Below the pieces are notes generated by a model. That model was not told where the DNA came from. It did not search any database and saw only the letters and a list, made by a program, of their open reading frames with translations. Positions 7,748-62,348 of a DNA stretch of 64,000 bases are shown piece by piece; the first letter of the stretch is position 1, and each line of letters starts with the position of its first letter. Made by a program: the position numbers and the translations under genes. Location: contig NZ_HG966617.1 of assembly GCF_000689395.1 (NCBI RefSeq), positions 878,753 through 942,752 on the forward strand. The letters are read 5' to 3'. Source of the DNA: Candidatus Phaeomarinobacter ectocarpi. GTDB taxonomy: Bacteria; Pseudomonadota; Alphaproteobacteria; CGMCC-115125.

Positions 7748-7781
7748 ATGCGCGAAGCAATAGGCGATGAGCGATGCTTGC

Positions 7782-8306: not shown

Positions 8307-8371
8307 GCGGCAAGACTAGCGCTGAACGTGGCCTTTGTCCTGAACGTCGGACAACCTGCAGCGATCTTCAA

Positions 8372-9316
8372 TCAGGCCGCACGCGGCATCTCGAATTTCA
8401 TGACCCGTCCGGCGCTTTGCAGGATCGAGATCATATGCTCGCGCAGCCAGCGATGCCCTTCATCTGCTTCCGATGCCTGTGTCCAGCCCAGATTGAAGTC
8501 TACGCCCGGGAGTTCAAACGGAATCTCGAGGGTGGCTATCCGCCCATCCACATTGTGCTGCCGCGCGAAGTTTAGGCCTGCAATCATGACAAGGTCAGAG
8601 ATGGCCACCAGTTCATACATGGATTCGGTATCCGCCGTCTGGCATGCGAAGTGCCGATTGACGCCATGCGACTGAAAGATGTTTTCGATGTGCTCAAAAA
8701 CCAGTGGAATTTGCGCGGACTTTATATAGGTCAACTGATTGAGCTGCTCTATTGACAAGGATCCCAGTTCGGCGAGTGGGTGATCCTTGGACAAGATCAC
8801 CCCCATCCGCTCTCGCCAGATATGTTTCGTCACCAACTCAGGTGTGATCTGAAAACTGGCGATACCCGCAATATCAACCTCACCACCTACCAGCGCCTCG
8901 GTGGTCCGACCGGCCGGATGGGGCACAAATTCGAGCACGATGTTGGGCGCCATTTGCCGGGCAAGCGTAACGAGCGCCGGAAGCAGACTGCGCTTGATGA
9001 TATCTGTTACAGCGATCGTAAAGGTGCGGGTGCTGGTGGCCGGATCAAAAGAGCGAACCGCCCTCAGCGAATTCTCTACGGTGTCCAGTGCGTGGCCAAT
9101 CGGAATGGCAAGTGTCACAGCTGTTCTGGTCGGTGCAACGCCGCTGCCCGATTTATAAAACAGTGTGTCGCCGGTAAAAGTCCGCAATCGTTTCAATGCA
9201 TTTGAAACAGCAGGCTGGGATATGCCCAGCCGCTTGGCCGCCAGCGATGTGCTGCGCTCCTGATAAACTGCGTTGAACACCATCAGCAGGTTTAGATCGA
9301 GGTCCCTGAAATTCAT
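8372..9316 (-). CDS. LysR family transcriptional regulator
   Basis: A 314-residue DNA-binding regulator with the canonical N-terminal winged helix (MNFRDLDLNLLMVFNAVYQE, then TSLAAKRLGISQPAVSNALK) and a C-terminal substrate-binding-protein-like effector domain. The DNA-binding part is close to the NodD/PcpR-like branch. The ATG at 9316 is chosen over a GTG eight codons upstream because LysR proteins normally begin a few residues before the LNLL segment. It is divergent from the autotransporter gene across an AT-rich gap containing a T-N11-A palindrome, so that gene and itself are likely targets. The inducer is unknown. Confidence 0.9.
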   Translation of the reverse strand: MNFRDLDLNLLMVFNAVYQERSTSLAAKRLGISQPAVSNALKRLRTFTGDTLFYKSGSGVAPTRTAVTLAIPIGHALDTVENSLRAVRSFDPATSTRTFTIAVTDIIKRSLLPALVTLARQMAPNIVLEFVPHPAGRTTEALVGGEVDIAGIASFQITPELVTKHIWRERMGVILSKDHPLAELGSLSIEQLNQLTYIKSAQIPLVFEHIENIFQSHGVNRHFACQTADTESMYELVAISDLVMIAGLNFARQHNVDGRIATLEIPFELPGVDFNLGWTQASEADEGHRWLREHMISILQSAGRVMKFEMPRAA

Positions 9317-9386
9317 CGTCTTCCCATTCTCTTTGACCACTCTCTTAGGCGCATTTCATGCGCATGCAAAATCACGAAGTAAAGAA

Positions 9387-9405
9387 CTATTCATTCCATG
9401 AATAG
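9387..9405. promoter_or_regulatory. LysR-type T-N11-A palindrome
   Basis: Perfect 8-bp arms, CTATTCAT and ATGAATAG, around TCC. The core TTCAT-TCC-ATGAA fits the T-N11-A box of LysR regulators. It lies 71 bp from the lysR start and about 171 bp from the divergent autotransporter start. Confidence 0.5.
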
Positions 9406-9533
9406 AAAGAATAATTTTAATGAATAAATGAGGATATTGCGCATGGTGTAAATATATATTTCAAATAGATGAAGTTATTTCACAGTTAATACATAGATTT
9501 CATTTGAGTTTTGATTGCCACCTAGACAGATTT

Positions 9534-9572
9534 ACCCACCCCCGATCCGGGGCCGTGTTTACTGGGGTGGGT
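9534..9572 (+). promoter_or_regulatory. Hairpin that would mask the autotransporter Shine-Dalgarno
   Basis: ACCCACCCC at 9534-9542 is perfectly complementary to GGGGTGGGT at 9564-9572, which contains the likely ribosome-binding site 4 nt before the ATG at 9576. A competing small hairpin, CCCCG (9540-9544) with CGGGG (9548-9552), would use part of the same upstream arm and free the ribosome-binding site. Confidence 0.45.
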
Positions 9573-9575
9573 TAG

Positions 9576-12098
9576 ATGGAAATTTGTCGTGTACTAACGG
9601 TAGCGAACAGGTCTTCTCTGCAGGTGGGCGCCTGGCTTGGCGCCCTCATGGGAAGTGCGGCGATTGTGACTGCCCCAGCACCGGCTCATGCGGCCTGTGT
9701 TCAGGCCACGCCGGGTAGCACCACGAGTTACACCATTACCGCCTCTGCCGGTACGACTGTTGATCTGGATACCTGTCCAGGTCCTGCAGTGTCTGGGGCG
9801 ACGGCGACGGTGACAGGTAATGTGACAGCACCTGCGGGCGGGGGAGCAGTTGCAATTGTTGATGGACTGGCCGCCGCAGACAACTGGACCCTCATTATCA
9901 ACCCGGGCGTGACCGTGCAGAATGACCCTGCGAACCCGGGGAGCGGAAACCGAGCAATCTTTGGCGTAGATACCAACTTCCGCTTGGAAAACGCCGGAAC
10001 GATTACAACCCACAATATCGGTCAAGCACTGTTTCTCGGAATAGGGCCAGGGACGGGGACGCTCATCAACAAAGCCGGCGGGACGATCCAGTCGCTCACC
10101 AACGCGTACGCAATTCAGACCCAGGGCGACAACACCATCATCAACGAAGCTGGAGCCACAATCGCAGGGGGGAGATCGGCCATAAGGTCTTTCCTTGGCC
10201 CGACTGGAACAATCACAAACGCAGGAACAATCACCGCGCAGGATTCAACCGCAGCGTTGGACGGTGCCATTGATCTTCAACAAGGAGGGGCGGTGACGAA
10301 CGCGCAAGGCGGCCGCATCGAGGGCGAGATCGGCATCTTGTATTTTGGTCCCACAAGTATTGTGAATGCTGGAACAATTACGGGAACCAATGGCATTGCC
10401 ATCCGCGGCCCTCTGGCTAACAGTCTCACGCTGGAAATACACCCGACCTCTGTCATTAACGGCCAGGTTTCAGTATTCAGGTCGCCGGGGGTCACGGATA
10501 CGCTTCGTTTCGGGGGAGTAGGTGCCGGCACTTTTGATCTGGATAACATCGACGGGGTGAATCCAAACCGGTATCTCGGATTCGACGTCTTTGAACTGAC
10601 CGGCGGAAGCTGGTCTTTTTCGGGTTCTACAACGCAAAGCTTGACGGTCAACGGTGGCCAGCTCAAGGGCACAGGGACATTCGGTGGCCTTGTATTCGGG
10701 GCAGGAAGTACGTTTGCGCCGGGCAACTCCATCGGCACAACCACCGTTAACGGCAATGTCGCCTTTGGGGACAACACCACATTCCAGGCCGAAATCGCGC
10801 CTGACGGGTCCAGCGACTTGCTCGCTGCAACCGGCACGGTGACCATCAGCCCGAACGGAACCACGCTGCAGGTGATCGGTGACCCTGCCGCAGCATTTCC
10901 CCAGACCCAGACATACACGATCATCACCGCGACTGGTGGCGTCACGGGTCAGTTTGCAACGCTTTCAGACAATCTTCCCGATATCGACATAGCGGCCGTT
11001 TACACACCCACCAGCGTTCGGCTGACCTATCAGCAGGATTCTGATACTTCGGACAAGACCATCCTTCCCGTATCCCTTGCCGGGGCGTTGGATGCGCCGC
11101 GGCTGTTCTCTCATCTGCTCACAGGCGCTCGTGGTGGCACGCCGATGCGCAACATCACCGGCGCTCGGTTCAAGCAGCCTGGCACAGGTCGTATTCTGGT
11201 GGCTGCAAATGCAACGTCCACCATGGTGGACGCATCCCCGCACAGGGCGATGCGCTGGCACACCTGGAGCACGGCTCTGGGCGCCACGCGTACAGTCGGC
11301 GCATCCGCGTCAAGCAGCGCCTATGACACCGACACATATGGGGGTGCTGTCGGAGCGCAGATGTCGCTCGCGGGGCACGGCAATCGGACCCTTGGCGTGG
11401 CCGCGAGCTACTTGACCACGCAAAGCGACAGCGAATTGTCGGACGCTGAGACAAGCAGCTACCTCGCGGGTGTCTATGCGTCTGCGAACTGGGGTGCCCT
11501 TGATCTATCCGGCGGCGTTGGCGGCGGGTGGCAGGAGACTGACACGACAAGGGTGATTCCCTTGATCGGTGGCGGCATTTCAACCGCGACCGGCAGGACG
11601 CAGGGCGCAACCGCCATGGCATCCGTCGCGGCGTTCTATGATCTTTCGATACGTGCTGGGTCCCGCGCGGGTACGCGGTTCGGTCCGTTCGTGACGGTCA
11701 ACTCGATCTACGCGGAACAAGGTGGCTTCACTGAGAAAGGCGCCGGCGTGCTGAACCTAACGGTCAGGAGCACTCAGGCACACCAGACCAAGACAGGTCT
11801 TGGCTTCAAAGGGGAAGCACAATTCAACGCGGGTCCCATTCGCGTTACCGCGGGCATGGACGCTGCTTGGGAACATACTTTGGGAGAAGACGAAATTGCT
11901 GTTTCGGTCGCATTGCCTTTGGCAGCCGCAAGTTTCAAGCCGAGGGCGCTTGCAGCCGACCGGAGCACCGTCGCGCTCACTCCTGAAGTTTCAGTGGAAG
12001 TGACAGACCGCCTGTCACTCGTTGCAGGGTACCGAGGCAGCTTTGGTGAGGAGACCACACAGCATCAGGCGTCAGCAGGATTCACCTGGCGCTTCTGA
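9576..12098 (+). CDS. Autotransporter (type V secretion) outer-membrane protein
   Basis: An 840-residue protein. It has an extended signal peptide (1-39, cleavage after AHA), a Gly/Thr/Ala/Asn-rich passenger of repeated beta-strand units (GTITNAGTIT, GTLINKAGGTI), and an autotransporter-associated repeat GGQLKGTGTFGG followed by GSTFAPGNSIGTT. The C-terminal beta-barrel spans roughly the last 270 residues and ends in a terminal Phe (TWRF), the usual outer-membrane targeting signal. The passenger shows no protease triad or other enzyme motif; adhesion or surface display is the likely role. Its 3' end overlaps the convergent DUF934 gene by 34 bp. The AT-rich upstream region and the LysR neighbour suggest regulated and possibly acquired DNA. 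Confidence 0.88.
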   Translation: MEICRVLTVANRSSLQVGAWLGALMGSAAIVTAPAPAHAACVQATPGSTTSYTITASAGTTVDLDTCPGPAVSGATATVTGNVTAPAGGGAVAIVDGLAAADNWTLIINPGVTVQNDPANPGSGNRAIFGVDTNFRLENAGTITTHNIGQALFLGIGPGTGTLINKAGGTIQSLTNAYAIQTQGDNTIINEAGATIAGGRSAIRSFLGPTGTITNAGTITAQDSTAALDGAIDLQQGGAVTNAQGGRIEGEIGILYFGPTSIVNAGTITGTNGIAIRGPLANSLTLEIHPTSVINGQVSVFRSPGVTDTLRFGGVGAGTFDLDNIDGVNPNRYLGFDVFELTGGSWSFSGSTTQSLTVNGGQLKGTGTFGGLVFGAGSTFAPGNSIGTTTVNGNVAFGDNTTFQAEIAPDGSSDLLAATGTVTISPNGTTLQVIGDPAAAFPQTQTYTIITATGGVTGQFATLSDNLPDIDIAAVYTPTSVRLTYQQDSDTSDKTILPVSLAGALDAPRLFSHLLTGARGGTPMRNITGARFKQPGTGRILVAANATSTMVDASPHRAMRWHTWSTALGATRTVGASASSSAYDTDTYGGAVGAQMSLAGHGNRTLGVAASYLTTQSDSELSDAETSSYLAGVYASANWGALDLSGGVGGGWQETDTTRVIPLIGGGISTATGRTQGATAMASVAAFYDLSIRAGSRAGTRFGPFVTVNSIYAEQGGFTEKGAGVLNLTVRSTQAHQTKTGLGFKGEAQFNAGPIRVTAGMDAAWEHTLGEDEIAVSVALPLAAASFKPRALAADRSTVALTPEVSVEVTDRLSLVAGYRGSFGEETTQHQASAGFTWRF

Positions 12099-12571
12099 AG
12101 AGCCGTTTTCTGACCATCGCCTGTCGGCTGATAGACGACACTGAACCGGCTGTTCGCATCCGCCCAGGCGTCTTCAGTAATCCGCGCGTCACCGTCCACT
12201 GCGTCATAGCCGCAGCGCACGAGGTAATGCAGCTGGTCTACAAGCACACCGCCGGTAGCCCGCAACTCACCTTCAAACTTGCCGCGATGGCGGATCAGGC
12301 GTCCGTATGAGAAGCCACGTCCGTCCTTGAACTGCGGAAAGTCCACGGCGATGAGGCCGAACCGGTCAAGGTCATCCATGATCTCGTCCGGGTTGTCACT
12401 GCTTTCCAGCGCCACACCAATCGGCTTGTTGCGCGTCAGCAGCGTGTCGCGGTCCTTGAGCCAGCGCGTCATGCTGACGAGCGCGTGGCAGTCTTCCGGC
12501 AGGTCCGCGTCGTCGTCCACGCGCACCCATTTGTCGTCACTGACAGCAACCCCGTCCTTAAGCAGCGGCAT
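12065..12571 (-). CDS. DUF934 domain-containing protein (sulfite reductase operon)
   Basis: A 168-residue cytosolic protein of the DUF934 family, found in alphaproteobacterial sulfate-assimilation operons directly after sulfite reductase. Characteristic stretches are IGVALESSDNPDEI, IAVDFPQFKDGRGFSYGRLI and VDQLHYLVRCGYDA. The ATG at 12571 lies inside the end of cysI (14 bp overlap) with Shine-Dalgarno AAGGAG, indicating translational coupling. The molecular function is not established; electron transfer or assembly of the reductase has been suggested from context. No cysH follows, because the next gene is the convergent autotransporter. Confidence 0.86.
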   Translation of the reverse strand: MPLLKDGVAVSDDKWVRVDDDADLPEDCHALVSMTRWLKDRDTLLTRNKPIGVALESSDNPDEIMDDLDRFGLIAVDFPQFKDGRGFSYGRLIRHRGKFEGELRATGGVLVDQLHYLVRCGYDAVDGDARITEDAWADANSRFSVVYQPTGDGQKTALQKRQVNPADA

Positions 12572-14216
12572 AGAGAGTCTCCTTGAAGGGGTCGATGCCG
12601 ATCCGGCGGTAGGTATCGAGGAAGATTTCACCGTCTTTGCGGTTCGCCACAAAGGTTTCAACGATGGTCTCAATGGCGCCGACGATCTCGTCTTCCGTGA
12701 AGGCAGGCCCAACAATGTCACCCACGGCAGCGTTTTCGTCTGCTGAACCACCAAGTGTCACCTGGTAAAACTCCACGCCCTTCTTGTCGACGCCGAGAAT
12801 GCCAATATGGCCCACATGGTGATGCCCGCAGGCATTGATGCAGCCTGAAATCTTGACCTTCAGCTCACCGATATCGTGCTCCTGATCAAGGTCGGCAAAG
12901 CGCTCCGAAATCATCTGGCCGATGGAGATCGACCGCGCATTGGCAAGGTCGCAATAGTCGAGACCCGGGCAGACGATCATATCGGAGATCAGCCCGATGT
13001 TCGGGGTCGCCAGCAACGCAGCATCCAGACGCTTCCAGACTTCATACAGGTCGGATTTTTTGACATCCGGCAGGGTGAGGTTCTGTTCGTGCGTCACCCG
13101 CACTTCATCAAAGCTGTATGTCTCGGCGAGATCAGCAACCGCATCCATCTGCGCGTCGGACGCATCACCGGCAATGCCGCCAATCGGCTTCAGCGATACA
13201 TTGACGATCGAATAGCCCGGCACTTTGTGGTCGGCGAGGTTGGTGCGCGCCCACTGGGCAAACGCCTTGTCCTCAGCCAATGCTTTTTCGTAGCCAGCGT
13301 CGCTGTCCGACAGCGTTTCGTAAGCAGGTGGCGCGAAGTAGGCGCGAATGCGCTCAATTTCGCCATCCGGCAGCTTGAGGTCTTCGCCTGCGCCGCCCTT
13401 GGCGAACTCTTCTTTCACCTGGCGGGCAAATTCTTCCGCACCCAGAGCATGCACAAGGATCTTGATGCGCGCCTTGTAGAGATTGTCGCGGCGCCCATGC
13501 ATGTTGTAGACGCGCATGATGGCGTCCATGAAGTGCAGCAGGTCGCGGGCCGGAATTTTCTGGCCCACAAGATGCGCCACCATCGGCGTGCGGCCCTGGC
13601 CACCACCGGCATAGATGTCAAACGCCGGCTCGCCGTTATCCCCTTCAACAATGATGATGCCCACATCGTGCATCTTGATGGCCGCACGGTCATTGCTGTG
13701 ACCCGTCACTGCAATTTTGAACTTGCGCGGCAGGAATGTGTATTCGGGATGGAACGTCGACCATTGACGAAGAATTTCTGCCCAGACGCGCGGATCATCA
13801 ATTTCACCGGCGGCAACACCCGCATACTGGTCTGACGTCACATTGCGGATGCAGTTGCCAGATGTCTGGATCGCGTGCATCTCAACGGTGGCAAGGTCCG
13901 CGAGAATGTCCGGCACGTCTTTCAGCTTCGGCCAGTTGTACTGAATGTTCTGGCGCGTGGTGAAGTGGCCGTAGCCCTTGTCATATTTGCGCGCCACATG
14001 GGCCAGCATCCGCATCTGCGTGCCTGACAGTGTGCCGTAGGGAATGGCCACCCGAAGCATGTAAGCATGCAACTGCAGGTAAAGACCATTCATCAGCCGC
14101 AGCGGCTTGAACTCGTCTTCCGTCAGTTCGCCGGCCAAACGGCGCTTCACCTGTCCGGTGAACTCCGTGACGCGTTCCTTGACGATGGTGTGGTCGAATT
14201 CATCGTAGCGATACAT
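12558..14216 (-). CDS. cysI: Nitrite/sulfite reductase hemoprotein subunit
   Basis: Siroheme- and [4Fe-4S]-containing reductase, predicted to reduce sulfite to sulfide for cysteine synthesis. The 552-residue protein has two ferredoxin-like half domains and the cluster-binding cysteines in CPGLDYC and CINAC (C-X5-C and C-X3-C), with GHHHVGHIG following. The N-terminal substrate-binding region includes TTRQNIQYNWPKL and TSGNCIRNVTSD. Nitrite reductases of this superfamily share the same motifs, but flanking DUF2849 and DUF934 genes indicate the sulfite branch. It is the middle gene of a three-gene minus-strand operon. Confidence 0.92.
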   Translation of the reverse strand: MYRYDEFDHTIVKERVTEFTGQVKRRLAGELTEDEFKPLRLMNGLYLQLHAYMLRVAIPYGTLSGTQMRMLAHVARKYDKGYGHFTTRQNIQYNWPKLKDVPDILADLATVEMHAIQTSGNCIRNVTSDQYAGVAAGEIDDPRVWAEILRQWSTFHPEYTFLPRKFKIAVTGHSNDRAAIKMHDVGIIIVEGDNGEPAFDIYAGGGQGRTPMVAHLVGQKIPARDLLHFMDAIMRVYNMHGRRDNLYKARIKILVHALGAEEFARQVKEEFAKGGAGEDLKLPDGEIERIRAYFAPPAYETLSDSDAGYEKALAEDKAFAQWARTNLADHKVPGYSIVNVSLKPIGGIAGDASDAQMDAVADLAETYSFDEVRVTHEQNLTLPDVKKSDLYEVWKRLDAALLATPNIGLISDMIVCPGLDYCDLANARSISIGQMISERFADLDQEHDIGELKVKISGCINACGHHHVGHIGILGVDKKGVEFYQVTLGGSADENAAVGDIVGPAFTEDEIVGAIETIVETFVANRKDGEIFLDTYRRIGIDPFKETLYAAA

Positions 14217-52231: not shown

Positions 52232-55192
52232 ATGGCTCCACCTGTTAGCACCTCACCCCTGGAAGCAGTCAGCACGGCATCATTGATCGCGTCCGATCAA
52301 ACCCGCGCCGAATGGACCATCGAGGAACTTCAAGCAGCGTCCCCTTCTACCGGGCGCGTAGATAAAGCCCTGATCAAACTGCTGAAGGATGATCGCGCGA
52401 GAGCGCTCCTCTCTGCCATGGCTGGGAACTCTCCCTTCCTGGCGCGGTTGCTGGTGCGGGAAGCGGAAATCCTGCCGTCCCTGCTCTCCGAACAAGCCTC
52501 GCAGAGTCTTGAAACTCTGCTTAAGGCGTGCCGGGCGGAAATGGAGGCGGCGCAGGACCAAGCCACGCTCATGGAGGCGGCGCGAACTGCCAAACGTCGT
52601 GTCGCATTGCTGACCGCAGCTGCGGACGTCTCAACTGCCTGGCCGCTTGAAAGTGTCACGCGTGCTCTCACGCTCCTGGCAGATACAGTCATCGAGTCGA
52701 CATGCCGGTGGTTACTACGCCGGTCCGCTAAGGCAGGGGACATCAAACTTGTAGATGAGAAAGTGCCGACCACTGGCTCTGGCCTCATTGTCATCGCCAT
52801 GGGAAAGCACGGAGCATTCGAGCTCAATTACTCCAGCGACATCGACATCATCGTGTTTTATGAGCCCGACGGTCTTGAATTCGCAGAAGGCATAGATCCC
52901 GGATCATTCTTCGTCCGCCTCACCCGCGACCTAGTCAAGGTTCTTCAGGAACCAACCGGTGGGGGATATGTATTCCGGACGGACCTCCGCCTACGACCAG
53001 ATGCCGGATCGACCAGTATTGCCATCTCCGCAGAGGCCGCTGAAACCTACTACGAGACCATGGGGCAGAACTGGGAGCGCGCCGCCATGATCAAGGCGCG
53101 CGAATGCGCGGGTGACCTGGCGGCTGGCCGCCGGCTGCTCGACATGCTGGAACCGTTTGTCTGGCGGCGATATCTGGATTTTGCGGCTATCGACGATATT
53201 CATTCCCTCAAGCGCCAGATTCATGCCCATGGCGGGCATGGCGCCATCGCCATCGAAGGCCATGACGTAAAGCTTGGCCGCGGTGGTATCCGCGAGATCG
53301 AGTTTTTCGTTCAGATACAACAGCTGATTGGCGGCGGGAAGTCTCCCGCGCTGCGCGGACGTGCCACCATCAAGATGCTTGAAGGGCTTGTCGCGGAAGG
53401 GTGGGTCACCGACCAGGCGCGCCAAGAGCTGTCTGATGCATATGACTTTCTGCGCACGCTCGAACATCGTTTGCAGATGGTGAATGACGAACAAACCCAT
53501 CGCATGCCACGCAACAAGGAAGGCGTTGCGTGCATTGCTGCCTTTATGGGGTTTGCGGACGAAGAAGCATTTCGACTGAGACTGCGAACGGTGCTCGAAA
53601 CAGTACAGCGGCACTACGCGCAGCTGTTTGAAAATGAGCCATCTGCTGCGCAGGAAGATGAGGCATTGGTCTTCAGCGGTACAGACAACGACCCCGCCAC
53701 GTTGCGTGCACTCAACGAGATGGGTTTTTCCGGCCCAGCGGCAGTCATAGACATCGTTCGCGGTTGGCATTTTGGCCGTATCCCGGCAACGCGGGCCGCG
53801 CGTTCGCGTGAACTTCTGACCAAGCTGACGCCGTCATTGCTCCGTGCCCTGGCAACGGTGGACAACCCGGACCAGGCAATTTTCAGATTTGACACGTTTC
53901 TGTCCGGCCAGCCTGCCGGCGTCCAGTTTTTTTCCCTGCTGTATCAAAATCCCGCGTTGATGGACCTGCTGGCAGGGATCATGGGATCCGCTCCCATGCT
54001 TGCCAGATACCTTTCAGAACATCCCAACGTTCTTGAGGCCGTTATTGCAGCAGACTTCTACGGACCTCTTCCAGATGAAGAGCAACGCTCGATGGAGGTT
54101 GCGGAAGTTGTCCAGGAGGCGGAAGGGTTTGAGCAGACTCTTGATCTGACACGCATCTATGCGCGCGAGCAGATGTTTCAGATTGGCGTACAGGTCTTGA
54201 CAGGAACGGCACCTGCTCGCGAAGCCGGCCAAGCCTATGCCGACCTCGCCTCCGCCTTGGTCCGAGGCATGGTCCCGGTCGCGACTCAGGAGATTGAACA
54301 TAATCATGGCCGCCTGCCTGGCGGAGAGATGGCGGTTGTTGCCATGGGCAAGCTCGGCGGCTCAGAGATGACAGCCACGTCTGACCTAGACCTGATCGTC
54401 ATTTATGATTTCGACGGTGAGAATTCAGAGTCAGATGGGCAACGTCCGATTGACGGTGTCAGATACTACACACGCGTTTGCCAGCGATTGATCAGTGCTT
54501 TGACAGCGCCAACCGCTGAAGGACCCCTCTACGAAGTCGACATGCGTTTGCGCCCCTCTGGGCACGCCGGTCCTTTGGCAACAAGGCTGCGTAGTTTTCA
54601 GACCTATCACCACGAAAGTGCTTGGACGTGGGAGAAAATGGCACTGACGCGCGCGCGCGCTATTTCCGGCTCACCAGAAATGCGTGAAAGGGTTTCCTCC
54701 GCAGTTGCGCAGGCATTGTGCGAGGAACGAGAGCCGGGCGCAGTCGCGCGTGATGTCGTGGATATGAGGGCGCGAGTCTACAAAGAACTGGGCAGCGAAG
54801 ACCTCTGGGACATCAAACATGGCAAAGGTGGATTGGTTGACCTTGAGTTCATCGCTCAGGGACTGCAGCTCATGCATTGCCAGGACAAACCTGAGGTGCT
54901 GGATACGGGGACAAGAGCTGCACTCGAAAAATTAGTCCGGGCAGATGTCCTTGGTTCGTCGTTAGGGGAAGAGCTGATAATTGCTGCGGACAAGTTCAAC
55001 AATCTCACACAGATATTGCGTATAGCAGTGCAGGATAAATTCGTGCCGGAGAATGCTGCGGAAGCCTTGAAAAGCCGCCTGGCGCGGGCCGTTGACGTGC
55101 CAAGCTTCTCGGCCGTGGAGAGAGAGCTTGCGGAGGCAAAAGTCGTTGTTGATAGGGCTTTTGACAAGCTCCTGACGAAAGTAGCCATCTAG
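52232..55192 (+). CDS. glnE: Bifunctional glutamine synthetase adenylyltransferase/deadenylase
   Basis: A 986-residue regulator of glutamine synthetase. It adenylylates the enzyme under nitrogen excess and removes the modification under limitation, responding to PII. Both nucleotidyltransferase domains are present: the N-terminal deadenylylase site GKHGAFELNYSSDIDIIVFY (near residue 203) and the C-terminal adenylylase site GKLGGSEMTATSDLDLIVIY (near 714). The linker contains KLGRGGIREIEFFVQIQQLI, and the C-terminal half has its counterpart HGKGGLVDLEFIAQGLQLMH. The start ATG lies 17 nt after a terminator. Confidence 0.96.
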   Translation: MAPPVSTSPLEAVSTASLIASDQTRAEWTIEELQAASPSTGRVDKALIKLLKDDRARALLSAMAGNSPFLARLLVREAEILPSLLSEQASQSLETLLKACRAEMEAAQDQATLMEAARTAKRRVALLTAAADVSTAWPLESVTRALTLLADTVIESTCRWLLRRSAKAGDIKLVDEKVPTTGSGLIVIAMGKHGAFELNYSSDIDIIVFYEPDGLEFAEGIDPGSFFVRLTRDLVKVLQEPTGGGYVFRTDLRLRPDAGSTSIAISAEAAETYYETMGQNWERAAMIKARECAGDLAAGRRLLDMLEPFVWRRYLDFAAIDDIHSLKRQIHAHGGHGAIAIEGHDVKLGRGGIREIEFFVQIQQLIGGGKSPALRGRATIKMLEGLVAEGWVTDQARQELSDAYDFLRTLEHRLQMVNDEQTHRMPRNKEGVACIAAFMGFADEEAFRLRLRTVLETVQRHYAQLFENEPSAAQEDEALVFSGTDNDPATLRALNEMGFSGPAAVIDIVRGWHFGRIPATRAARSRELLTKLTPSLLRALATVDNPDQAIFRFDTFLSGQPAGVQFFSLLYQNPALMDLLAGIMGSAPMLARYLSEHPNVLEAVIAADFYGPLPDEEQRSMEVAEVVQEAEGFEQTLDLTRIYAREQMFQIGVQVLTGTAPAREAGQAYADLASALVRGMVPVATQEIEHNHGRLPGGEMAVVAMGKLGGSEMTATSDLDLIVIYDFDGENSESDGQRPIDGVRYYTRVCQRLISALTAPTAEGPLYEVDMRLRPSGHAGPLATRLRSFQTYHHESAWTWEKMALTRARAISGSPEMRERVSSAVAQALCEEREPGAVARDVVDMRARVYKELGSEDLWDIKHGKGGLVDLEFIAQGLQLMHCQDKPEVLDTGTRAALEKLVRADVLGSSLGEELIIAADKFNNLTQILRIAVQDKFVPENAAEALKSRLARAVDVPSFSAVERELAEAKVVVDRAFDKLLTKVAI

Positions 55193-55283
55193 GGCACCAC
55201 AACGCTGTTATCCTTAACGCACGCCGCCGCTTGAAGGCCGCAATAACTGTGTTTACTCCCAATAGACAGTTTAAGGAGGATGA

Positions 55284-56921
55284 GTGGCGTGGGTCACTCA
55301 TAGCCTGATCCACATGGAGCGCTTCGACGTCATCGTCATTGGTGCGGGCCACAATGGCCTGACAGCCGCCGCCTATCTGGCGCGTGCTGGCCTCAGTGTG
55401 CTTGTGCTGGAGAAAAACGAGTATATCGGCGGTGCGGCCGTTAGCCGGGAAATTGAACCTGGCTTCATCTACTCAAGCTGCTCCTACGCTCTCAGCCTTT
55501 TGCGTCCGGAAATTGTACGCGATCTCGAACTGGTCCGGCACGGTCTGAGGGTCATGCCCTATCATGGCTCAGTCACGCTCATGGGCGATGGCCGTTATCT
55601 GGCAGCGTCATCTCATTCAGACGTAATGCGACGCGAAATCTCACGCTTCTCCAAGCGCGATGCAGATGCCTATCAGCAATACAGTCGAGATATGCGGCGG
55701 CAGGCTGATCTGGTGGCCCCATTGCTCATGCAGGCACCTCCTGATCCAGCCTCACTGTCGCCATCAAAACTCCGTCGGACGCTCTCTTTGCTTTCGGACG
55801 CTGGAGCGATGGGAGCCGCGGGTGTTGCCGATGCGGTGCGGTTCTGGACGATGTCCGCAGCGGATTTGCTTGACCGATATTTTGAATCAGACGTCGTAAA
55901 AGCCCATCTGGCCGCATCAGCAACCATTGGCACAGGGCTTGGCCCCATGTCGCCGGGCAGTGCCTACGTGATGCTGCATCACAGGATCGGCGGCATTGAT
56001 GGTGCCGGTGGAGCATGGGGTTATGTGCGCGGCGGCATGGGTACTGTGTCCAAAGCGCTGGCAGCCTCAGTCCACGCCTCTGGTGGTGAGGTTCGCGCAT
56101 CAAGCGGCGTTGATGAGGTCAAGGTCAGCAAGGGAAGGGCATCTGGTGTCGTTCTGGAGGACGGGACACAAATCGACGCCAGTGTCGTGATGTCGGGGCT
56201 CGAGCTCAAACGGTCCGTCTTGTCGCTGCTCGACTGGAAAGGCTTGCCCAAGGGCTTTCCTGATCGCGTATCTAAATTCAAGACGCGCGGCTCGTCGGCC
56301 AAGCTGAACATCGCCCTGGATGGTCACCCACAATTCAGTGCCGTTCCCGATGACTGCCCCTCGCTCGATGGTGACATCCGACTGTGTGGAACGATTGAGG
56401 ACATGGAGCATGCGTATGATGACTGGAAGGAACGGGTCATGCCGCGCAATCCATACATCGAGATGGTGCTGCCATCCCGACTTGACCCAACCCTGGCACC
56501 ACCCGGCAAGCATGTGGCATCGGTGTTCGTCCAATATGTTCCAGACACATTGATTGATGGCAGTTGGACACAGGCAAATCGTAAGACGCTCGAGGATGTC
56601 GTACTCGACAAGATCGAAGCGGCTGCTCCGGGCTTCAGAAAAAAAGTGCGGCATGTGGAGACCAGAACACCCGCTGAACTCGAGGGCGAAATAGGCCTGA
56701 CACAGGGAAACATCTTCCATGGAGAGCTGACGCTCGACCAGCTGTTGTTCAATCGCCCTCTCCCGGAACTGGCGCAATACAGAACACCCGTTCGCAACTA
56801 TTATCTTTGTGGCTCAAGCACACATCCGGGCGGGGGTGTCATGGGGGCACCGGGCGCCAACGCGGCAAGCGCGGTTCTGTCTGACATTGGCAAGCGCCGC
56901 AGAGTGAGGCGGTCTGCATGA
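55284..56921 (+). CDS. FAD-dependent oxidoreductase, PYROXD2/phytoene-dehydrogenase-like (first)
   Basis: A 545-residue flavoprotein of the CrtI-related PYROXD2 group. FAD binding is shown by VIVIGAGHNGLTAAAYLARA, GGAAVSRE, and the C-terminal LCGSSTHPGGGVMGAPGANA. Starting choice: AGGAGG sits 4 nt before the GTG at 55284; an ATG at 55314 starts nearer the conserved fold but lacks a ribosome-binding site. The stop overlaps the next start (ATGA). It is not expected to make carotenoids, since no crt genes are present. The substrate is unknown. Confidence 0.86.
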   Translation: MAWVTHSLIHMERFDVIVIGAGHNGLTAAAYLARAGLSVLVLEKNEYIGGAAVSREIEPGFIYSSCSYALSLLRPEIVRDLELVRHGLRVMPYHGSVTLMGDGRYLAASSHSDVMRREISRFSKRDADAYQQYSRDMRRQADLVAPLLMQAPPDPASLSPSKLRRTLSLLSDAGAMGAAGVADAVRFWTMSAADLLDRYFESDVVKAHLAASATIGTGLGPMSPGSAYVMLHHRIGGIDGAGGAWGYVRGGMGTVSKALAASVHASGGEVRASSGVDEVKVSKGRASGVVLEDGTQIDASVVMSGLELKRSVLSLLDWKGLPKGFPDRVSKFKTRGSSAKLNIALDGHPQFSAVPDDCPSLDGDIRLCGTIEDMEHAYDDWKERVMPRNPYIEMVLPSRLDPTLAPPGKHVASVFVQYVPDTLIDGSWTQANRKTLEDVVLDKIEAAAPGFRKKVRHVETRTPAELEGEIGLTQGNIFHGELTLDQLLFNRPLPELAQYRTPVRNYYLCGSSTHPGGGVMGAPGANAASAVLSDIGKRRRVRRSA

Positions 56922-58510
56922 GTGCGGCTGCAAACACTTTTGACATTGCGATCGTCGGAGGCGGTCACAACGGGCTTGTTGCAGCAGCTCTGTTGGCGAA
57001 GGCAGGGCGGCGCGTGGTTTTGTGCGAAGCACTACCAACTCTGGGCGGGGCTGCAGGTGTCAGCACACTGATGCCCGGTATGCGCGCGCCTAAATGCGCT
57101 CACGTGGTAAGTGGATTTTCTCCAGCCCTCATCCGAAAACTGAATCTCAAGAAGCATGGCTTGAATGTTCTTCAAAAAGACATGAGCCGTGTGGCGCTTG
57201 ATCCGGGCGGCCGCCATATTGTCTTTGGGCCCAAGGCCAAGGCTACCCGCGAGAACATCTTCAACTGGTCAAGCCGGGATGCTGAGTCCTGGAAAGTGTT
57301 CTGTGGCGAGTTGGACCTTTTAACTTCCGCGTTGGTTCCATTGCATCGAGGCGTCTCGCCGGACCTTGTTCCAGAAACATGGCCAGAGCGGATGGCATGG
57401 GCGCGTCATTATCTGCGTGTACGCCGGAACGGACGTGAACCGTTTCAGAAATTGCTTCAACTTCTACCGTCCAATGTCGGCGACTTTCTGGATGCCTCAT
57501 TTGAGACAGACATACTCAAAGGTGCCCTGGCGCTTGACGCCAGCCTTGGTTCGTATCACGGCCCCAGTGCTCCGGGCTCCTTGTTCTATTGGACCTGGCA
57601 AAGAGCCGGCGAGCTAGCGAGCCCGTCAGGCACCTTGCAAGTTGAAGGGGGGCCTGACGCGTTGGTGCAGGCGCTCGCATCTGCCGCTCGGGCAAGGGGT
57701 GCCGACATAAGGACGTCATCCTCTGTCGCCTCAATTCGTATTGAAGATGAGGAAACCACGGGGCTTGTGCTCGCCAATGGTGATGAAATCGCCGCACCCA
57801 TCGTAATCTCGACGATCAATCCAAAGGCGACATATCTCAACTTGGTTGGAGCCAAGCACCTTGACGCCGGGATGGCGCGTGATGTCGGTGCCATCCGTGT
57901 GCGTGCCTCAGCGGCGAAAGTGAATCTTGCGTTGGCCCAACTGCCCTCTTTTGCGAAAGCTGATGAGAAACTCCTTGCTGGACGCCTGCTTGTCGCGCCA
58001 GGCCTTGCGGAGGTCGAGCGTGCCTCAAACCCACAAAAATATGGCGCGCTGCCCGCATACCCTGTGATGGAGGTAACGCTTCCAAGTATCGTTGACGCAA
58101 GCCTGACACCGGATGGCCGCCACATATTGTCCGCGATTGTTCCGTTTGTCCCGTTGGACGTTGACGGCGGGTGGGAAGGCCAAAGCGATAATTTGATCAA
58201 GCGGGTGATAAAGACGCTTGGGGAGTATGCGCCGGACATATCTGATCTTGTGATGGCTGGCGAAGTCCTGACGCCAAGAGACCTGGAAACCCATTGCGGC
58301 GTTGCCGGGGCCGATTGGCATCAGGGCGAGGTCACTTTTGATCAGGCCATGATGATGCGACCCGTTCCTCAGCTTGCAAATGGGAGAAGCCCCATCGGTG
58401 GCCTGTTCCTCGGTGGCGCTGGCGCACATCCAGGCGGCGGTTTGTCCGGCCGACCCGCGGTGAACGCAGTTGCAGCGGCTACCAAATATGCAAAAGGGGG
58501 GCGATCATGA
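56918..58510 (+). CDS. FAD-dependent oxidoreductase, PYROXD2/phytoene-dehydrogenase-like (second)
   Basis: A 530-residue paralog of the preceding protein. It has the N-terminal FAD motif IAIVGGGHNGLVAAALLAKA, then LGGAAGVST, and the C-terminal FLGGAGAHPGGGLSGRPAVN. Similar internal landmarks, GDFLDASFETDILKGALALD and WTWQRAGELASPSGTLQVEG, mirror those of the first protein. The gene overlaps both neighbours by 4 bp, so the three products are probably made in fixed ratio. Two unequal flavoproteins encoded together suggest a heteromeric enzyme. Confidence 0.87.
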   Translation: MSAAANTFDIAIVGGGHNGLVAAALLAKAGRRVVLCEALPTLGGAAGVSTLMPGMRAPKCAHVVSGFSPALIRKLNLKKHGLNVLQKDMSRVALDPGGRHIVFGPKAKATRENIFNWSSRDAESWKVFCGELDLLTSALVPLHRGVSPDLVPETWPERMAWARHYLRVRRNGREPFQKLLQLLPSNVGDFLDASFETDILKGALALDASLGSYHGPSAPGSLFYWTWQRAGELASPSGTLQVEGGPDALVQALASAARARGADIRTSSSVASIRIEDEETTGLVLANGDEIAAPIVISTINPKATYLNLVGAKHLDAGMARDVGAIRVRASAAKVNLALAQLPSFAKADEKLLAGRLLVAPGLAEVERASNPQKYGALPAYPVMEVTLPSIVDASLTPDGRHILSAIVPFVPLDVDGGWEGQSDNLIKRVIKTLGEYAPDISDLVMAGEVLTPRDLETHCGVAGADWHQGEVTFDQAMMMRPVPQLANGRSPIGGLFLGGAGAHPGGGLSGRPAVNAVAAATKYAKGGRS

Positions 58511-59682
58511 GCAGGTCCCACACACAGACACAAAGCTGGGATCTGGCTGTGCGACCAACGCCTCTTCACGCGCGGACTGCGCAATTCAACCGAACCAATC
58601 AATGGACGCAGGAGCTGGGGTGGACGCTGCCATCTGTGTACGACCATTTGGAAGCCGAACATGCAGCCTTGCGGAACGCGTGCGCTCTATCGGATCTGAA
58701 TGGACTCGTTACCTATCAATTGTCCGGTCGTGAGGTCAGTGAGTATCTCAATCGGTTGGCGGGCGGATGTGGCGGCGATGTGGGCGTTGGAAAGTGCCGC
58801 CGCGTTGCCATCAGTGATGATGAAGGCGGGCTGATCGCTGACGGCGTTGTCATCCGATCAGATCAATCGGGTTGGCTTCTGACACTTCCCGTTCGGTGCC
58901 TGGATTGGCTCATCACGTCCGCACATGGTTTTGACTGCTATGTTCAGGATGTGTCCGAGACAACGTCCACATTTGCCCTCGATGGCCCCTCTTCCTGCGC
59001 CGCGTTGCTGGCTGCTGGAATGGGTGGAATCGAGGCGCTTAGGCCTGGGGCGGTGAGGGCACTCACAGTGGGAACCGCGAAAGTCACGGTGGCCCGCATT
59101 TCCGCGACCGGTGGACTGGGATACGAGGTCCGATGTGACACTGATGATGCCGTGTTTGTTTTTGATCGGGTGCGCCTGGGAGCAGAGCTTTTCAGACCCG
59201 TCTTTGCCGGGCAGCACGCGCGTCACCTCGCGCAGCTAGAAGCCGGACACCCTCGTGCCAATCACGATTTTGAGTCCGCGTTGACGGCATCGCTCGACGA
59301 TCGCCGTTCAGCCTTCGAAGTCGGACTTGGCGCGTTGCTTGACTTCTCAGGAGGGCACTTCACTGGCAAGCATGCTCTCATGCGACAACGTGAAAAGGGC
59401 GCACAAAGAGCGATTGTCGGAGTTGAGGTTGATGGAGAACTGCAACCGGACGGCAGGCTGATCTCAACGCCGACGGGAATTGTTGGCAAGGTAACAAGCC
59501 ATGCATGGTCCCCATCGTGCAAAAAGCAGATCGGCCTTGCTGACCTTCGCGCAGACATTCTGGGCTCCGCGGCGGATATCAGCCTGCAGGGACAAGCCGG
59601 CCAGAAAATTCCCGTCAAAATCGCGCCTAGACCGTTTTACACCTGTCCCAATGCGCGACGCACGCCACCAGAAGCGCAGTAA
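58507..59682 (+). CDS. GcvT-like folate-binding aminomethyltransferase family protein
   Basis: A 391-residue protein of the GcvT/YgfZ/dimethylglycine-oxidase folate-binding superfamily. Matching parts are LRNACALSDLNGLVTYQLSG (tetrahydrofolate fold), ISATGGLGYEVRCD, AQLEAGHPRANHDF (compare RLEAGYP in T-proteins), and the C-terminal PTGIVGKVTSHAWSPSCKKQ. It would accept a one-carbon unit from an amine or act as an accessory folate protein. It is last in a coupled three-gene operon with two flavoproteins. Confidence 0.85.
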   Translation: MSRSHTQTQSWDLAVRPTPLHARTAQFNRTNQWTQELGWTLPSVYDHLEAEHAALRNACALSDLNGLVTYQLSGREVSEYLNRLAGGCGGDVGVGKCRRVAISDDEGGLIADGVVIRSDQSGWLLTLPVRCLDWLITSAHGFDCYVQDVSETTSTFALDGPSSCAALLAAGMGGIEALRPGAVRALTVGTAKVTVARISATGGLGYEVRCDTDDAVFVFDRVRLGAELFRPVFAGQHARHLAQLEAGHPRANHDFESALTASLDDRRSAFEVGLGALLDFSGGHFTGKHALMRQREKGAQRAIVGVEVDGELQPDGRLISTPTGIVGKVTSHAWSPSCKKQIGLADLRADILGSAADISLQGQAGQKIPVKIAPRPFYTCPNARRTPPEAQ

Positions 59683-59976
59683 TCTGCCGATTTTTGTCGA
59701 CGCTTTTTATTCCGGTATTTCGACGGATTCGTGTGCCCTGGCCGTTTGATCTTCTGAATACCAACAGAAGGCGTCTGCAAGCATGCCGCTGGTACAGCGT
59801 TCCCTGAACGCCCCCGGTCGGTCGGCATCCCTCAAACCGCCACTTGCAGCGTCTTCAACCCGGTGCAGCGCGTCTGCGTCTTGTCATGGCCCCCTGTGGC
59901 ATGTGGCGCGCTGTGCCGGCGGTGTTCATCAAATGGGCATGTGGGGCATCACAACCCAATGTATCGAAGGAACGAT

Positions 59977-60555
59977 ATGATGATGAAGAAGACACTTACG
60001 ATTGCCGCTCTGACTGTGACCCTTGGTGCAGGAATTGCAATTGCCGCGCCCGGCGGCGGGTACTTCAAAAAGGCGGATACGGATGGTAACGGCGCCATCT
60101 CGCTTGAAGAAGCCAAGGCTATGGCTGGCAAGCGCTTTGACCGTATGGACAAGGATGAGTCCGGCTCACTGACCAGCGATGAAATCTCGTCCATGCGTGG
60201 GAAAGGTCGGCACGGCCACGGTCGTGGCGACATGACGGCAGAAGAACGTTCCGAACGTATCGAGGCACGCTTTGCGCGTCTTGATGCAGACAAGAGCGGA
60301 GCCGTGACTCTTGAGGAAATGACTTCAGCATCCGAACAGCGTTCGCAGAAGCGCGCTGAGCGCAAAGCAGAGCGCTTTGCATCCATCGATGCGGATGCAA
60401 GTGGCGACGTTTCCAAAACTGAGTTCCTGGCTCACATGACGGACAAGATGTTCAGTCGGGCTGATTCAGACGGAAACGGTGAAGTCACCAAGGAAGAAAT
60501 GCGGGCTGCGCGTGAAGCGATGCGGGAAGCTCGCAAGGCAGACCGGGCCAACTAG
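59977..60555 (+). CDS. Exported five-EF-hand calcium-binding protein
   Basis: A 192-residue protein with a signal peptide (1-23, cleavage after AIA) and five canonical 12-residue EF-hand loops, starting at D34 (DTDGNGAISLEE), D58 (DKDESGSLTSDE), D103 (DADKSGAVTLEE), D138 (DADASGDVSKTE) and D163 (DSDGNGEVTKEE). All have acidic residues at positions 1 and 12. A basic, His/Gly-rich linker (74-84) separates loops two and three. Periplasmic calcium binding is expected. It precedes an ECF sigma factor gene with its own hairpin and promoter between them. The ATG at 59977 has AAGGA upstream; two further ATGs follow directly. Confidence 0.88.
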   Translation: MMMKKTLTIAALTVTLGAGIAIAAPGGGYFKKADTDGNGAISLEEAKAMAGKRFDRMDKDESGSLTSDEISSMRGKGRHGHGRGDMTAEERSERIEARFARLDADKSGAVTLEEMTSASEQRSQKRAERKAERFASIDADASGDVSKTEFLAHMTDKMFSRADSDGNGEVTKEEMRAAREAMREARKADRAN

Positions 60556-60561
60556 CGGCAA

Positions 60562-60600
60562 TGGCACGGACCACAGAATATCTCGACGTGGTCCGTGCCA
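60562..60600. promoter_or_regulatory. 13-bp perfect hairpin after the EF-hand gene
   Basis: Arms at 60562-60574 and 60588-60600 are fully complementary with a 13-nt loop. There is no T-run, but its position 7 nt after the EF-hand stop suggests transcription termination or mRNA-end protection. Confidence 0.6.
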
Positions 60601-60618
60601 CCGCTCTGACCAGTTCAG

Positions 60619-60646
60619 TTGACGGCAATTGGACTCTGCCTACAAC
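60619..60646 (+). promoter_or_regulatory. Possible sigma70-type promoter of the sigma-factor operon
   Basis: TTGACG (60619-60624) and TACAAC (60641-60646) are spaced by 16 bp and lie 53 nt before the proposed TTG start. This suggests the sigma-factor genes can be transcribed separately from the EF-hand gene. Confidence 0.4.
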
Positions 60647-60698
60647 AGGACTAGCCTACGCTAGGCCACTTCCACGTTACGGATGCCAGGGGGACCTT

Positions 60699-61325
60699 TT
60701 GGCGGCATCGCCAAAAAATAGACAGGCACAGCTGCAATCGCAGGATCAAGCTGAGAGCCTCGCCGAGATGGATCAAGACTTTGCCAGACGTATTGCGTCC
60801 GGCGAAGCGGCAGCAATGCGCGAAGCGGTCAATGAATTTCTACCGCAGATACATGCAACGGCACTGCGCATGTTGCGCAACGAGGCAGATGCCGACGAAG
60901 TGACGCAGGAGACCTTCCTGCGCGTCTGGAAGAATGTTGGCACCTGGGTCCCAAAGGGCGCGCGACTGCGCACCTGGGTCATTCGGATCGCCATGAACCT
61001 TTGTTACGACAGGCTTCGCAAAAAGGGTCATGGCAAGTCACTGCCGCTGGAGGACGCACCGGAGACGATTGATGGTGCGCCAAGCGCAGTTGAGACAATT
61101 GCGGTGCACGACAGGTCTGTGCAGGTCGATATCGCGATGTCAGCATTGCCGGATCGCCAAAGGGCCGCAATCCAGCTCGTGCACTTCGATGAAATGAGCA
61201 ATATCGATGCAGCAAGCATCATGGATGTTAGCGTAGAGGCGCTTGAGTCTTTACTTGCTCGAGGTCGACGAAGCCTGAAAACGGCTCTCCTCGACCAGAG
61301 AGAGGAACTGTTGGGAGATGTGTGA
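60699..61325 (+). CDS. ECF-type RNA polymerase sigma factor
   Basis: Alternative sigma factor of about 208 residues with region 2 (ALRMLRNEADADEVTQETFL, then RVWKNVGTW, then RTWVIRIAMNLCYDRLRKKG) and region 4 (LPDRQRAAIQLVHFDEMSNI, then DAASIMDVSVEALESLLARG). The start is uncertain: the TTG at 60699 has a strong GGGGG Shine-Dalgarno, while an ATG at 60768 would give a shorter product beginning MDQDFARRIASGE. The reading frame extends further upstream but crosses a hairpin and promoter and is not coding there. It overlaps the next gene (TGATG), which probably encodes its anti-sigma factor. Confidence 0.88.
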   Translation: MAASPKNRQAQLQSQDQAESLAEMDQDFARRIASGEAAAMREAVNEFLPQIHATALRMLRNEADADEVTQETFLRVWKNVGTWVPKGARLRTWVIRIAMNLCYDRLRKKGHGKSLPLEDAPETIDGAPSAVETIAVHDRSVQVDIAMSALPDRQRAAIQLVHFDEMSNIDAASIMDVSVEALESLLARGRRSLKTALLDQREELLGDV

Positions 61326-61831
61326 TGACGCCTGAACGGGTAAAGAACATTATTGATGCTTATGGTGCGTCATCCCATCGGTGGCCTGCAGCAGAGCGCA
61401 GTGCCGCGTTGGCTCTGATCAGTGAAACGCCATCACTGGCTACATATCAGCAGCAAGCTGAAGTGCTTGATGGTGTTCTTGCGCTTGCGCCGCAGCCCTC
61501 TGCTCCGACTTCTTTGGTTGAAGCCGTCCTTGCGAGTGCTGCTGACCGTAACCTGCCCGGCACGGCATCTCGGCCTGTGCAGGCGAGTGCACCGCAGCGT
61601 TTCTGGGACGCCGTGGCTCAACTCTGGCCGGGCATGCCGGTCTGGCAACCGGCAGTTGGATTCGCTGCGTCACTGGCAGTTGGAATTTGGGCGGGCGCAG
61701 AGGGTCTGGTTCCGCTGACGGCCGAAGGTGGCGGAGCTGAATATGTTTTGCTGGAGACAACGGACGGGGATGCACTGTCTTTGATCTACGGAGACTCCAT
61801 TGGATTTGGGGAATGGGAAAATGACGGATAG
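61325..61831 (+). CDS. Probable membrane-bound anti-sigma factor
   Basis: A 168-residue protein with a soluble N-terminal half (MTPERVKNIIDAYGASSHRW), one membrane helix (about 108-124, AVGFAASLAVGIWAGAE) and a short periplasmic tail of about 44 residues. Gene position after and overlapping an ECF sigma gene, and the one-helix topology, suggest an anti-sigma factor. No zinc-binding HxxxCxxC motif is present. The assignment is inferred from context, not from family similarity. Its end overlaps the next gene by 11 bp. Confidence 0.7.
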   Translation: MTPERVKNIIDAYGASSHRWPAAERSAALALISETPSLATYQQQAEVLDGVLALAPQPSAPTSLVEAVLASAADRNLPGTASRPVQASAPQRFWDAVAQLWPGMPVWQPAVGFAASLAVGIWAGAEGLVPLTAEGGGAEYVLLETTDGDALSLIYGDSIGFGEWENDG

Positions 61832-62348
61832 GACAGACCCCAAGACAGTGGGCCGCTGGGTGAAAGTAATCCTGTTTGCTTCGCTGGCAATCAACCTGTT
61901 CTTCGCCGGTCTCCTGATTGGCGGACCTGCTTTCCGGGATGGCCCCCCGAAGGGCGGTCCAGGCGCTGCAATGATGCCCAATCCACGCATGTTTGTAGAA
62001 GCACTCGGTCCAAGAGAGGGGCGGCGCGTTCAACGTGAGATCCGCAGAAGTGTTCCAGACCTCCGAGAGAAGTTCAAAGCCGTTCGGGCAAATCATCTGC
62101 GTGTTGTGGCCGCGTTGCGGGCTGACCCATATGATCCGCAGGCGCTGACCGACGCTCTGGGCAATGTGCGCGAAGCCCACACGGAACTGGCAGCCTCATT
62201 CCAGGAGCCATTGGCAACAGTATTTGGCAATCTGACTTATGAGCAACGCCTCAAACTGGCAGACGCGCTGGAGCAGATGCGACCGCGACCTGGACGACGG
62301 CCTGGCGGAGTGTCTGAAAGGCCCTCGGGCGACGATCCTGATCGCTAA
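61821..62348 (+). CDS. Periplasmic heavy-metal-sensor-like protein (CnrX/CpxP-type)
   Basis: A 175-residue protein with a membrane anchor (about 14-35, VKVILFASLAINLFFAGLLI) and a helical periplasmic domain of the Metal_resist type: REGRRVQREIRRSVPDLREK, then FKAVRANHLRVVAALRADPY, then AHTELAASFQEPLATVFGNL. It resembles CnrX, which senses nickel/cobalt and controls the sigma factor CnrH through the anti-sigma factor CnrY. Few of the His/Met residues that bind metal in CnrX can be matched, so the ligand may differ. It is last in the operon. Confidence 0.82.
   Translation: MTDRTDPKTVGRWVKVILFASLAINLFFAGLLIGGPAFRDGPPKGGPGAAMMPNPRMFVEALGPREGRRVQREIRRSVPDLREKFKAVRANHLRVVAALRADPYDPQALTDALGNVREAHTELAASFQEPLATVFGNLTYEQRLKLADALEQMRPRPGRRPGGVSERPSGDDPDR

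Follow-up and report, generated by a model that had tools for sequence, protein, structure and literature searches.

A candidate folate-coupled N-demethylase operon that joins two CrtO-like flavoproteins to a GcvT-like protein

Dimethylglycine oxidase, dimethylglycine dehydrogenase and sarcosine oxidase combine oxidation by flavin adenine dinucleotide (FAD) with a folate protein that resembles the T-protein of the glycine cleavage system (GcvT) and carries an aspartate. In dimethylglycine oxidase and sarcosine oxidase the FAD domain is of the DAO type and is fused. Here we describe an operon of three genes, FA, FB and GT (together the triad), in a stretch of 64,000 nucleotides from Candidatus Phaeomarinobacter ectocarpi, of the class Alphaproteobacteria (contig NZ_HG966617.1, positions 878,753 to 942,752), this whole stretch being called the window below. 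The triad has, by prediction, the same two elements, FAD-dependent oxidation and a T-protein-like folate protein with the aspartate. It differs in its flavoproteins, which are two paralogues resembling CrtI and monoamine oxidase (MAO), judging from the predicted fold of FA, and in the use of three separate genes. The best reading is that the triad follows the logic of dimethylglycine oxidase with another flavoprotein class. We consider it reasonably probable that the operon encodes a folate-coupled oxidative N-demethylase, in which FA and FB oxidise the N-methyl group of a methylated amine and GT takes the one-carbon unit onto tetrahydrofolate (THF).

The features of the operon are as follows.

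55273..55279, + strand, Shine-Dalgarno-like AAGGAGG before FA, read from the sequence
55284..56921 (from GTG) or from ATG at 55314, + strand, FA, first predicted FAD protein, CrtI/CrtO type (open reading frame; NCBIfam CrtO, E 5.9e-87, below cut-off; fold model; Lys330)
56918..58510, + strand, FB, second predicted FAD protein, paralogue of FA, ATGA overlap with FA (open reading frame; NCBIfam CrtO, E 3.9e-67, below cut-off; Lys334)
58507..59682, + strand, GT, predicted GcvT-like folate-binding protein, ATGA overlap with FB (Pfam GCV_T and GCV_T_C; Asp112 and Glu207; fold model)

The first-pass annotation of this DNA had described three genes joined by two ATGA overlaps, and the open reading frames, all on the plus strand, bear this out (overlaps at 56918 and 58507). 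Compared with a congener (G002), the ratios of nonsynonymous to synonymous substitution rates are 0.043 for FA, 0.109 for FB and 0.135 for GT, with 0.067 for the neighbouring GlnE gene. The low ratios indicate that all three genes are under purifying selection and are maintained.

The folate protein and the two flavoproteins

GT contains the Pfam domains GCV_T (9e-33) and GCV_T_C (2e-9), in keeping with its earlier description as T-protein-like. Its predicted structure (predicted local distance difference test, pLDDT, 91.3) superposes on the T-protein (1woo; Z 43.7, root mean square deviation (rmsd) 2.1, 357 residues aligned) and on folate-bound dimethylglycine oxidase (1pj6; Z 42.0, rmsd 2.5, 362 aligned). 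Weaker matches are found to dimethylsulfoniopropionate (DMSP) demethylase (Z 38.0), LigM (Z 29.6), YgfZ (1nrk; Z 25.8) and IBA57 (Z 22.5). Asp112 of GT pairs with Asp96 of the T. maritima T-protein, the residue being counted from the alignment, and we take this position to be the catalytic one of the T-protein. The PDB titles among the structural matches include a D552A dimethylglycine oxidase and a D97N T-protein. A degenerate folate pocket, which the first-pass annotation had raised as an objection to its own reading, is not seen in the window's GT, which retains both Asp112 and Glu207, the folate glutamate in a GYE motif.

These residues are widely conserved. Among 108 aligned GT sequences (110 proteins were extracted and two shorter than 250 amino acids were dropped) position 112 is Asp in 92, Glu in 11 and A, I or L in five; eight of the 108 rows repeat a gene that appears under two locus identifiers, and without them a hand count gives 88 D, 8 E and 4 others of 100. 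Glu207 is retained in 107 of the 108. Glu at position 112 is found in some lineages (L024, L025, L027 and relatives), including a congener of the window's organism. The five sequences with neither Asp nor Glu include the shrunken triad of one genome (G007, locus L028, in the set twice). At this locus (2519-12626) FA and FB are shortened, GT lacks the Asp, and genes resembling spermidine synthase, PotD and gamma-glutamyl-polyamine synthetase lie nearby.

GT shares fold, domains and the aligned aspartate with GcvT, but it misses the NCBIfam GcvT cut-offs (126.9 against 300 and 99.3 against 235.85 bits). The window's own genome encodes two other GCV_T proteins. A frame of 445 amino acids (254.6 bits to PF01571) is taken, from its profile score, as the true GcvT of the genome, and a frame of 308 amino acids (34.8 bits) is perhaps YgfZ; no long fused GCV_T protein was found in this genome. 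GT is thus distinct from both and makes a third predicted folate protein, and its identification as the glycine cleavage T-protein of the genome was rejected in view of the separate, better-scoring GcvT. The KGCYxGQ motif is a feature of YgfZ and IBA57. No such string occurs in the GT translation, and the fold of GT is clearly nearer to the T-protein. At one locus (L026) GT is followed by another GcvT-like gene (9206-10468), which shares 26% identity with the window's GT; the genome concerned (G019) has 12 GcvT-like matches.

A further relative is trimethylamine N-oxide demethylase (Tdm), whose C-terminal GcvT-like part matches GT. It gives the top score for the GT of a Fuscovulum plasmid (259.5 bits), and the window's GT reaches 107.5 bits against a cut-off of 1100. 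GT is a stand-alone protein of approximately 390 amino acids, the match covers positions 384-757 of 763, and the N-terminal domain of Tdm is unmatched. The partner enzymes in the triad are flavoproteins, unlike in Tdm. Tdm is not among the 50 structural matches listed for the GT model, which carries no weight against the likeness.

FA and FB are paralogues (31.8% identity over 522 amino acids, E 1e-68). Carotene ketolase CrtO is the top NCBIfam model for both, with scores far under its cut-off; FA scores 292.5 against 1000 for CrtO and 125.4 against 238.1 for crtI_fam, missing both. We take the PYROXD2- and CrtO-like flavoproteins to be grouped as COG1233-type, the triad differing by its tie to a folate protein. 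Of the two flavoproteins FA was modelled (pLDDT 88.0), and its closest structure is a carotenoid desaturase (4rep; Z 33.4, rmsd 3.0, 475 aligned). This is followed by 3ka7 (Z 28.5), 3nrn (Z 26.1) and plant phytoene desaturase (Z 25.7), and on the MAO-type side by renalase (Z 24.8), putrescine oxidase (Z 24.7) and monoamine oxidase A (Z 23.4); the structural neighbours were also compared by Foldseek. The predicted fold of FA is nearest to the CrtI type, with the MAO type next.

Lys330 of FA is present in 86 of 87 FA sequences. The position of Lys334 in FB is K in 72 of 80 FB sequences and Arg in seven of the remaining eight. A lysine aligned with position 330 of FA is present in 3nrn and absent in 4dgk and 4rep. 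MAO-type oxidases have a lysine near flavin N5, and Lys330 and Lys334 may, by alignment, match it.

The first-pass annotation had called FA and FB paralogous CrtI-related FAD proteins outside the DAO type. The profiles and the FA model agree with this, Pfam DAO being the best match only over approximately the first 60 residues of the flavoprotein. Its term PYROXD2-like is upheld indirectly, through the CrtO model and through house finch PYROXD2, which is reported to be approximately 35% identical to Synechocystis CrtO and to lack carotenoid-metabolising activity (PMC12010460).

Linkage and gene neighbourhood

Linkage of the three genes in other genomes had been proposed as a test by the first-pass annotation, and the triad genes are linked across phyla. 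In three other genomes of the genus the triad, its order and its flanks (GlnE upstream and an EF-hand gene downstream) are the same, and in a genome of another family (G012) the triad also lies beside GlnE, with 36-43% identity. Among 385 genomes of the class the 28 best GT matches (at least 302 bits; L109-L136, one per genome) lie in frames of 390-480 amino acids, except for two of 653 and 654; the matches after these (at most 258 bits) are mostly in frames of approximately 800 amino acids and more. FB adjoins GT in 27 of the 28 loci, weakly in one (L120, 81 bits), and in the only locus without FB (L129) the contig stops approximately 100 bases upstream of GT. A close FA (at least 660 bits) is present in 19 genomes of the class, and coordinate comparison places GT within a few kb on the same contig in 18; in the 19th (G074) FA is at a contig end. 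Many FA homologues at 471-593 bits are without such a GT, the tie to GT is therefore a property of an FA subfamily and not of all such flavoproteins.

The cross-phylum set consists of 80 loci from named genomes, the best of 570 matches to the FA alignment, and it favours the triad because the query was built from triad members. The titles cover Alpha-, Beta-, Gamma- and Deltaproteobacteria, Acidobacteria and Gemmatimonadetes. A complete triad, with starts less than 4.5 kb from the FA start, is found in 73 of the 80, and six of the seven incomplete loci are cut by a contig edge (L029, L034, L042, L063, L079 and L103). The order is FA-FB-GT in 57 of the 73 triads, the same with an extra GT-like gene upstream in one, FB-FA-GT in eight, GT divergent from FA-FB in six and GT-FA-FB in one. 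The triad remains intact despite the rearranged order, which argues for a functional tie. One Porticoccaceae metagenome-assembled genome (L093, JAQXBF010000006.1, 3437-13653) carries tandem triads, one FA-FB-GT and one FB-FA-GT.

The plasmid collection is a linkage check less prone to query bias than the 80 loci. Among 72,556 plasmid records FA (E 1e-150) is found on seven and GT (E 1e-60) on seven, and these are the identical seven. Pairwise distances of FA and GT over 78 loci correlate with r 0.91, of which shared descent alone explains part. A contig search with the GT sequence alone returned no relative; the FA alignment recovered the loci.

Neighbouring genes were clustered over 86 loci and the representatives were named by NCBIfam. 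The clusters (with numbers of loci) include BetI-like TetR regulators (48), class III aminotransferases (39), PotA-like ATPases (37), Pot permeases (33 and 27), GbcA-like Rieske oxygenases (31), PotD- or PotF-like binding proteins (26 and 11), ADP-forming acyl-CoA synthetases (14) and gamma-glutamyl-putrescine-synthetase-like proteins (13). The models that pass their cut-off include aminotransferase PRK07036, PotA TIGR01187 and BetI NF001978; the GbcA scores of neighbours are 124.8-284.8 against a cut-off of 670.

Thirteen markers were compared between 50 loci of at least 18 kb (30 of the 80 are shorter and were excluded), which span several phyla, and 20 control windows, placed by hand at round coordinates in nine genomes of the class. 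The enriched markers are BetI (35 against 0), PotA (32 against 4), PotC and PotD (each 30 against 0), PotB (29 against 0), omega-aminotransferase (25 against 0), Rieske proteins (24 against 1), gamma-glutamyl-polyamine synthetase and acyl-CoA synthetase (each 10 against 0) and HemL-type aminotransferase (9 against 0). PuuB-like proteins (8 against 0), aldehyde dehydrogenase (5 against 1) and acyl-CoA dehydrogenase (11 against 1) miss p 0.05 in this comparison.

The clearest case is a plasmid of Fuscovulum ytuae. It carries a divergent TetR gene followed by a single co-oriented run: an aminotransferase gene, FA, FB and GT, genes for two Rieske oxygenase alpha subunits, and four genes of an importer of the polyamine type. 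Plasmids of Rhizobium sp. SL42 and Parasedimentitalea marina have similar parts in other orders. After the importer, the Fuscovulum plasmid (L191, 21515-24767) encodes proteins annotated as a DMSP-lyase family protein, an amidohydrolase and a methyltransferase-domain protein.

Proposed function, alternatives and the relation to PYROXD2

From these comparisons we infer the heteromer, the N-demethylation, the transfer to THF, the substrate class and the order of steps. FA and FB, probably as a heteromer, would oxidise, through FAD, a methyl group on the nitrogen of a methylated amine. GT would bind THF and capture the one-carbon unit as 5,10-methylene-THF, by which free formaldehyde would be avoided and the unit retained. 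In many lineages the module may be part of a catabolic cluster in which a Pot-type importer supplies the substrate, GbcA-like Rieske oxygenases demethylate the quaternary nitrogen, the triad does the same for the tertiary or secondary amine, and the primary amine so released goes to class III aminotransferases or to enzymes like gamma-glutamyl-polyamine synthetase. For the window's genus, in which the triad is without amine-related neighbours, the substrate may be a methylated amine from inside the cell.

A comparable sequence of steps is that of glycine betaine demethylation, in which GbcA acts first and dimethylglycine and sarcosine are then oxidised. GbcA-like and BetI-like genes recur beside the triad, by analogy suggesting stepwise loss of N-methyl groups; the Pot-type importer and class III aminotransferases differ from that pathway and indicate another substrate. 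By its context the substrate would belong to the N-methylated (poly)amines; a polyamine, a diamine or a basic amino acid carrying N-methyl groups is the most likely kind. The first-pass annotation had proposed an amine or lipid-amine oxidase feeding THF; its amine half, the linkage and the key residues of GT are supported, and support for a lipid-amine was not found. No account of this flavoprotein class tied to a folate protein or aminomethyltransferase was found by title among the papers listed in searches of the open-licence PMC literature, an absence that is weak evidence. Homarine catabolism was considered as a published counterpart and set aside, the papers returned from the same literature mentioning homarine no more than once or twice. 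If the proposal holds, the operon adds to the ways in which marine and soil bacteria recycle the nitrogen and the one-carbon units of methylated amines.

Several observations weigh against an N-demethylase with a polyamine-like substrate. Most neighbour scores are under the NCBIfam cut-offs, the names given to neighbours are therefore family-level. The probes for the enrichment were drawn from the case loci, the cases are mutually related, and three of the 50 long loci have none of the 13 markers. One locus (L077) has FA without FB and GT. Asp112 is replaced in a minority of GT sequences, by Glu or by A, I or L, in the numbers given above. Several conserved sites of the family differ in the window's GT, among them position 36 (Glu, against Trp in 96 of the 108) and position 243 (Gln, against Arg in 98), and its GcvT score exceeds its Tdm score. 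Close homologues of gamma-glutamyl-polyamine synthetase and GbcA-like Rieske proteins are missing in the window's genus (G000, G001 and G002), with partial weak matches only, and the sole Pot-permease match there is of 33% identity. The idea that polyamine-related genes accompany the triad in this genus too was therefore rejected.

An unlikely alternative, if one with some structural grounds, is that GT is a methyltransferase like DmdA or LigM which passes an intact methyl group on to give 5-methyl-THF, FA and FB oxidising the same substrate separately, for example by C-N cleavage of a polyamine. The superposition of GT on DMSP demethylase and LigM, the enrichment of Pot-type importers and gamma-glutamyl-polyamine-synthetase-like genes near the triad, and putrescine oxidase among the closer folds of FA would fit this. 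GT is nevertheless closer to the T-protein and dimethylglycine oxidase, and the tie of FA and FB to GT in several gene orders suits a shared step more than two separate ones.

A little less likely again is a non-catalytic GT, a folate-binding factor that assembles or stabilises flavoproteins or Rieske iron-sulphur proteins in the manner of YgfZ or IBA57, with FA and FB freely releasing formaldehyde or other aldehydes. The five GT sequences with neither Asp nor Glu at position 112, and the Rieske genes near the triad in 24 of the 50 long loci, could be read in this way. The other 103 of the 108 have one of the two acidic residues, however, GT is far closer to the T-protein than to YgfZ or IBA57, the separate 308-residue protein could be the YgfZ of the genome, and the triad persists in the window's genus without a GbcA-like Rieske neighbour.

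That FA and FB act on a carotenoid, a lipid or another non-amine, the amine-related neighbours being separate pathways, is improbable: the top profile (CrtO) and the top fold (a carotenoid desaturase) point that way, but the CrtO score is far from its cut-off, carotenoid genes are absent from the recurrent neighbour clusters inspected, the triad genes are co-oriented with aminotransferase, Rieske and polyamine importer genes, and the CrtO-similar finch PYROXD2 is reported to be without carotenoid activity.

The proposed folate-coupled N-demethylase bears on a human protein. FA and FB belong to an orphan flavin enzyme family that appears to include human PYROXD2, the link running through similarity to CrtO. 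PYROXD2 is a human mitochondrial protein whose function is termed little known (PMC8777681). A missense variant is reported to account for 50% of the variance in N6-methyllysine, 48% in N6,N6-dimethyllysine and 21% in N-methylpipecolate; in a replication cohort the traits of the PYROXD2 region include N-acetyl-isoputreanine (PMC8109053). The methyl-lysine associations are described again in a paediatric cohort (PMC9730628), and urinary trimethylamine and plasma dimethylamine are reported to map to the PYROXD2 gene region (PMC3169529). A rare-variant signal of PYROXD2 for N6,N6-dimethyllysine is stated to be gone once conditioned on common variants (PMC7878905).

Such human associations with N-methylated amines also speak for the N-demethylase reading, and we infer that the operon and PYROXD2 have N-methyl-amine oxidation in common. 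The wider proposal, that the triad represents one more architecture of folate-coupled N-demethylase and that the whole PYROXD2 family oxidises N-methyl amines, is offered tentatively and may well be wrong. If true, human PYROXD2 would be the missing demethylase of N6-methylated lysines and of methylamines related to them, and the one-carbon unit would pass to folate as in the operon. PYROXD2 variants are tied to the levels of methyl-lysine, dimethylamine and trimethylamine, the operon could therefore make PYROXD2 testable, as a possible bacterial model.

Gene starts and flanking genes

FA may start at GTG at 55284 or at the in-frame ATG at 55314. The spacing of AAGGAGG fits the GTG, and the same GTG is present in one congener (G002). 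In another (G001) the reading frame opens at the equivalent of the ATG, and a further genome (G003) has an unrelated extension of five residues. Within the window, positions 52232-62348 hold GlnE, the triad, the EF-hand protein and a sigma-factor block, which are syntenic in the genus and partly in G012, with no evident functional link. A tiny open reading frame at 55280-55303 (ATG to TAG, eight codons including the stop) lies directly after AAGGAGG and runs, in a different frame, into the start of FA.

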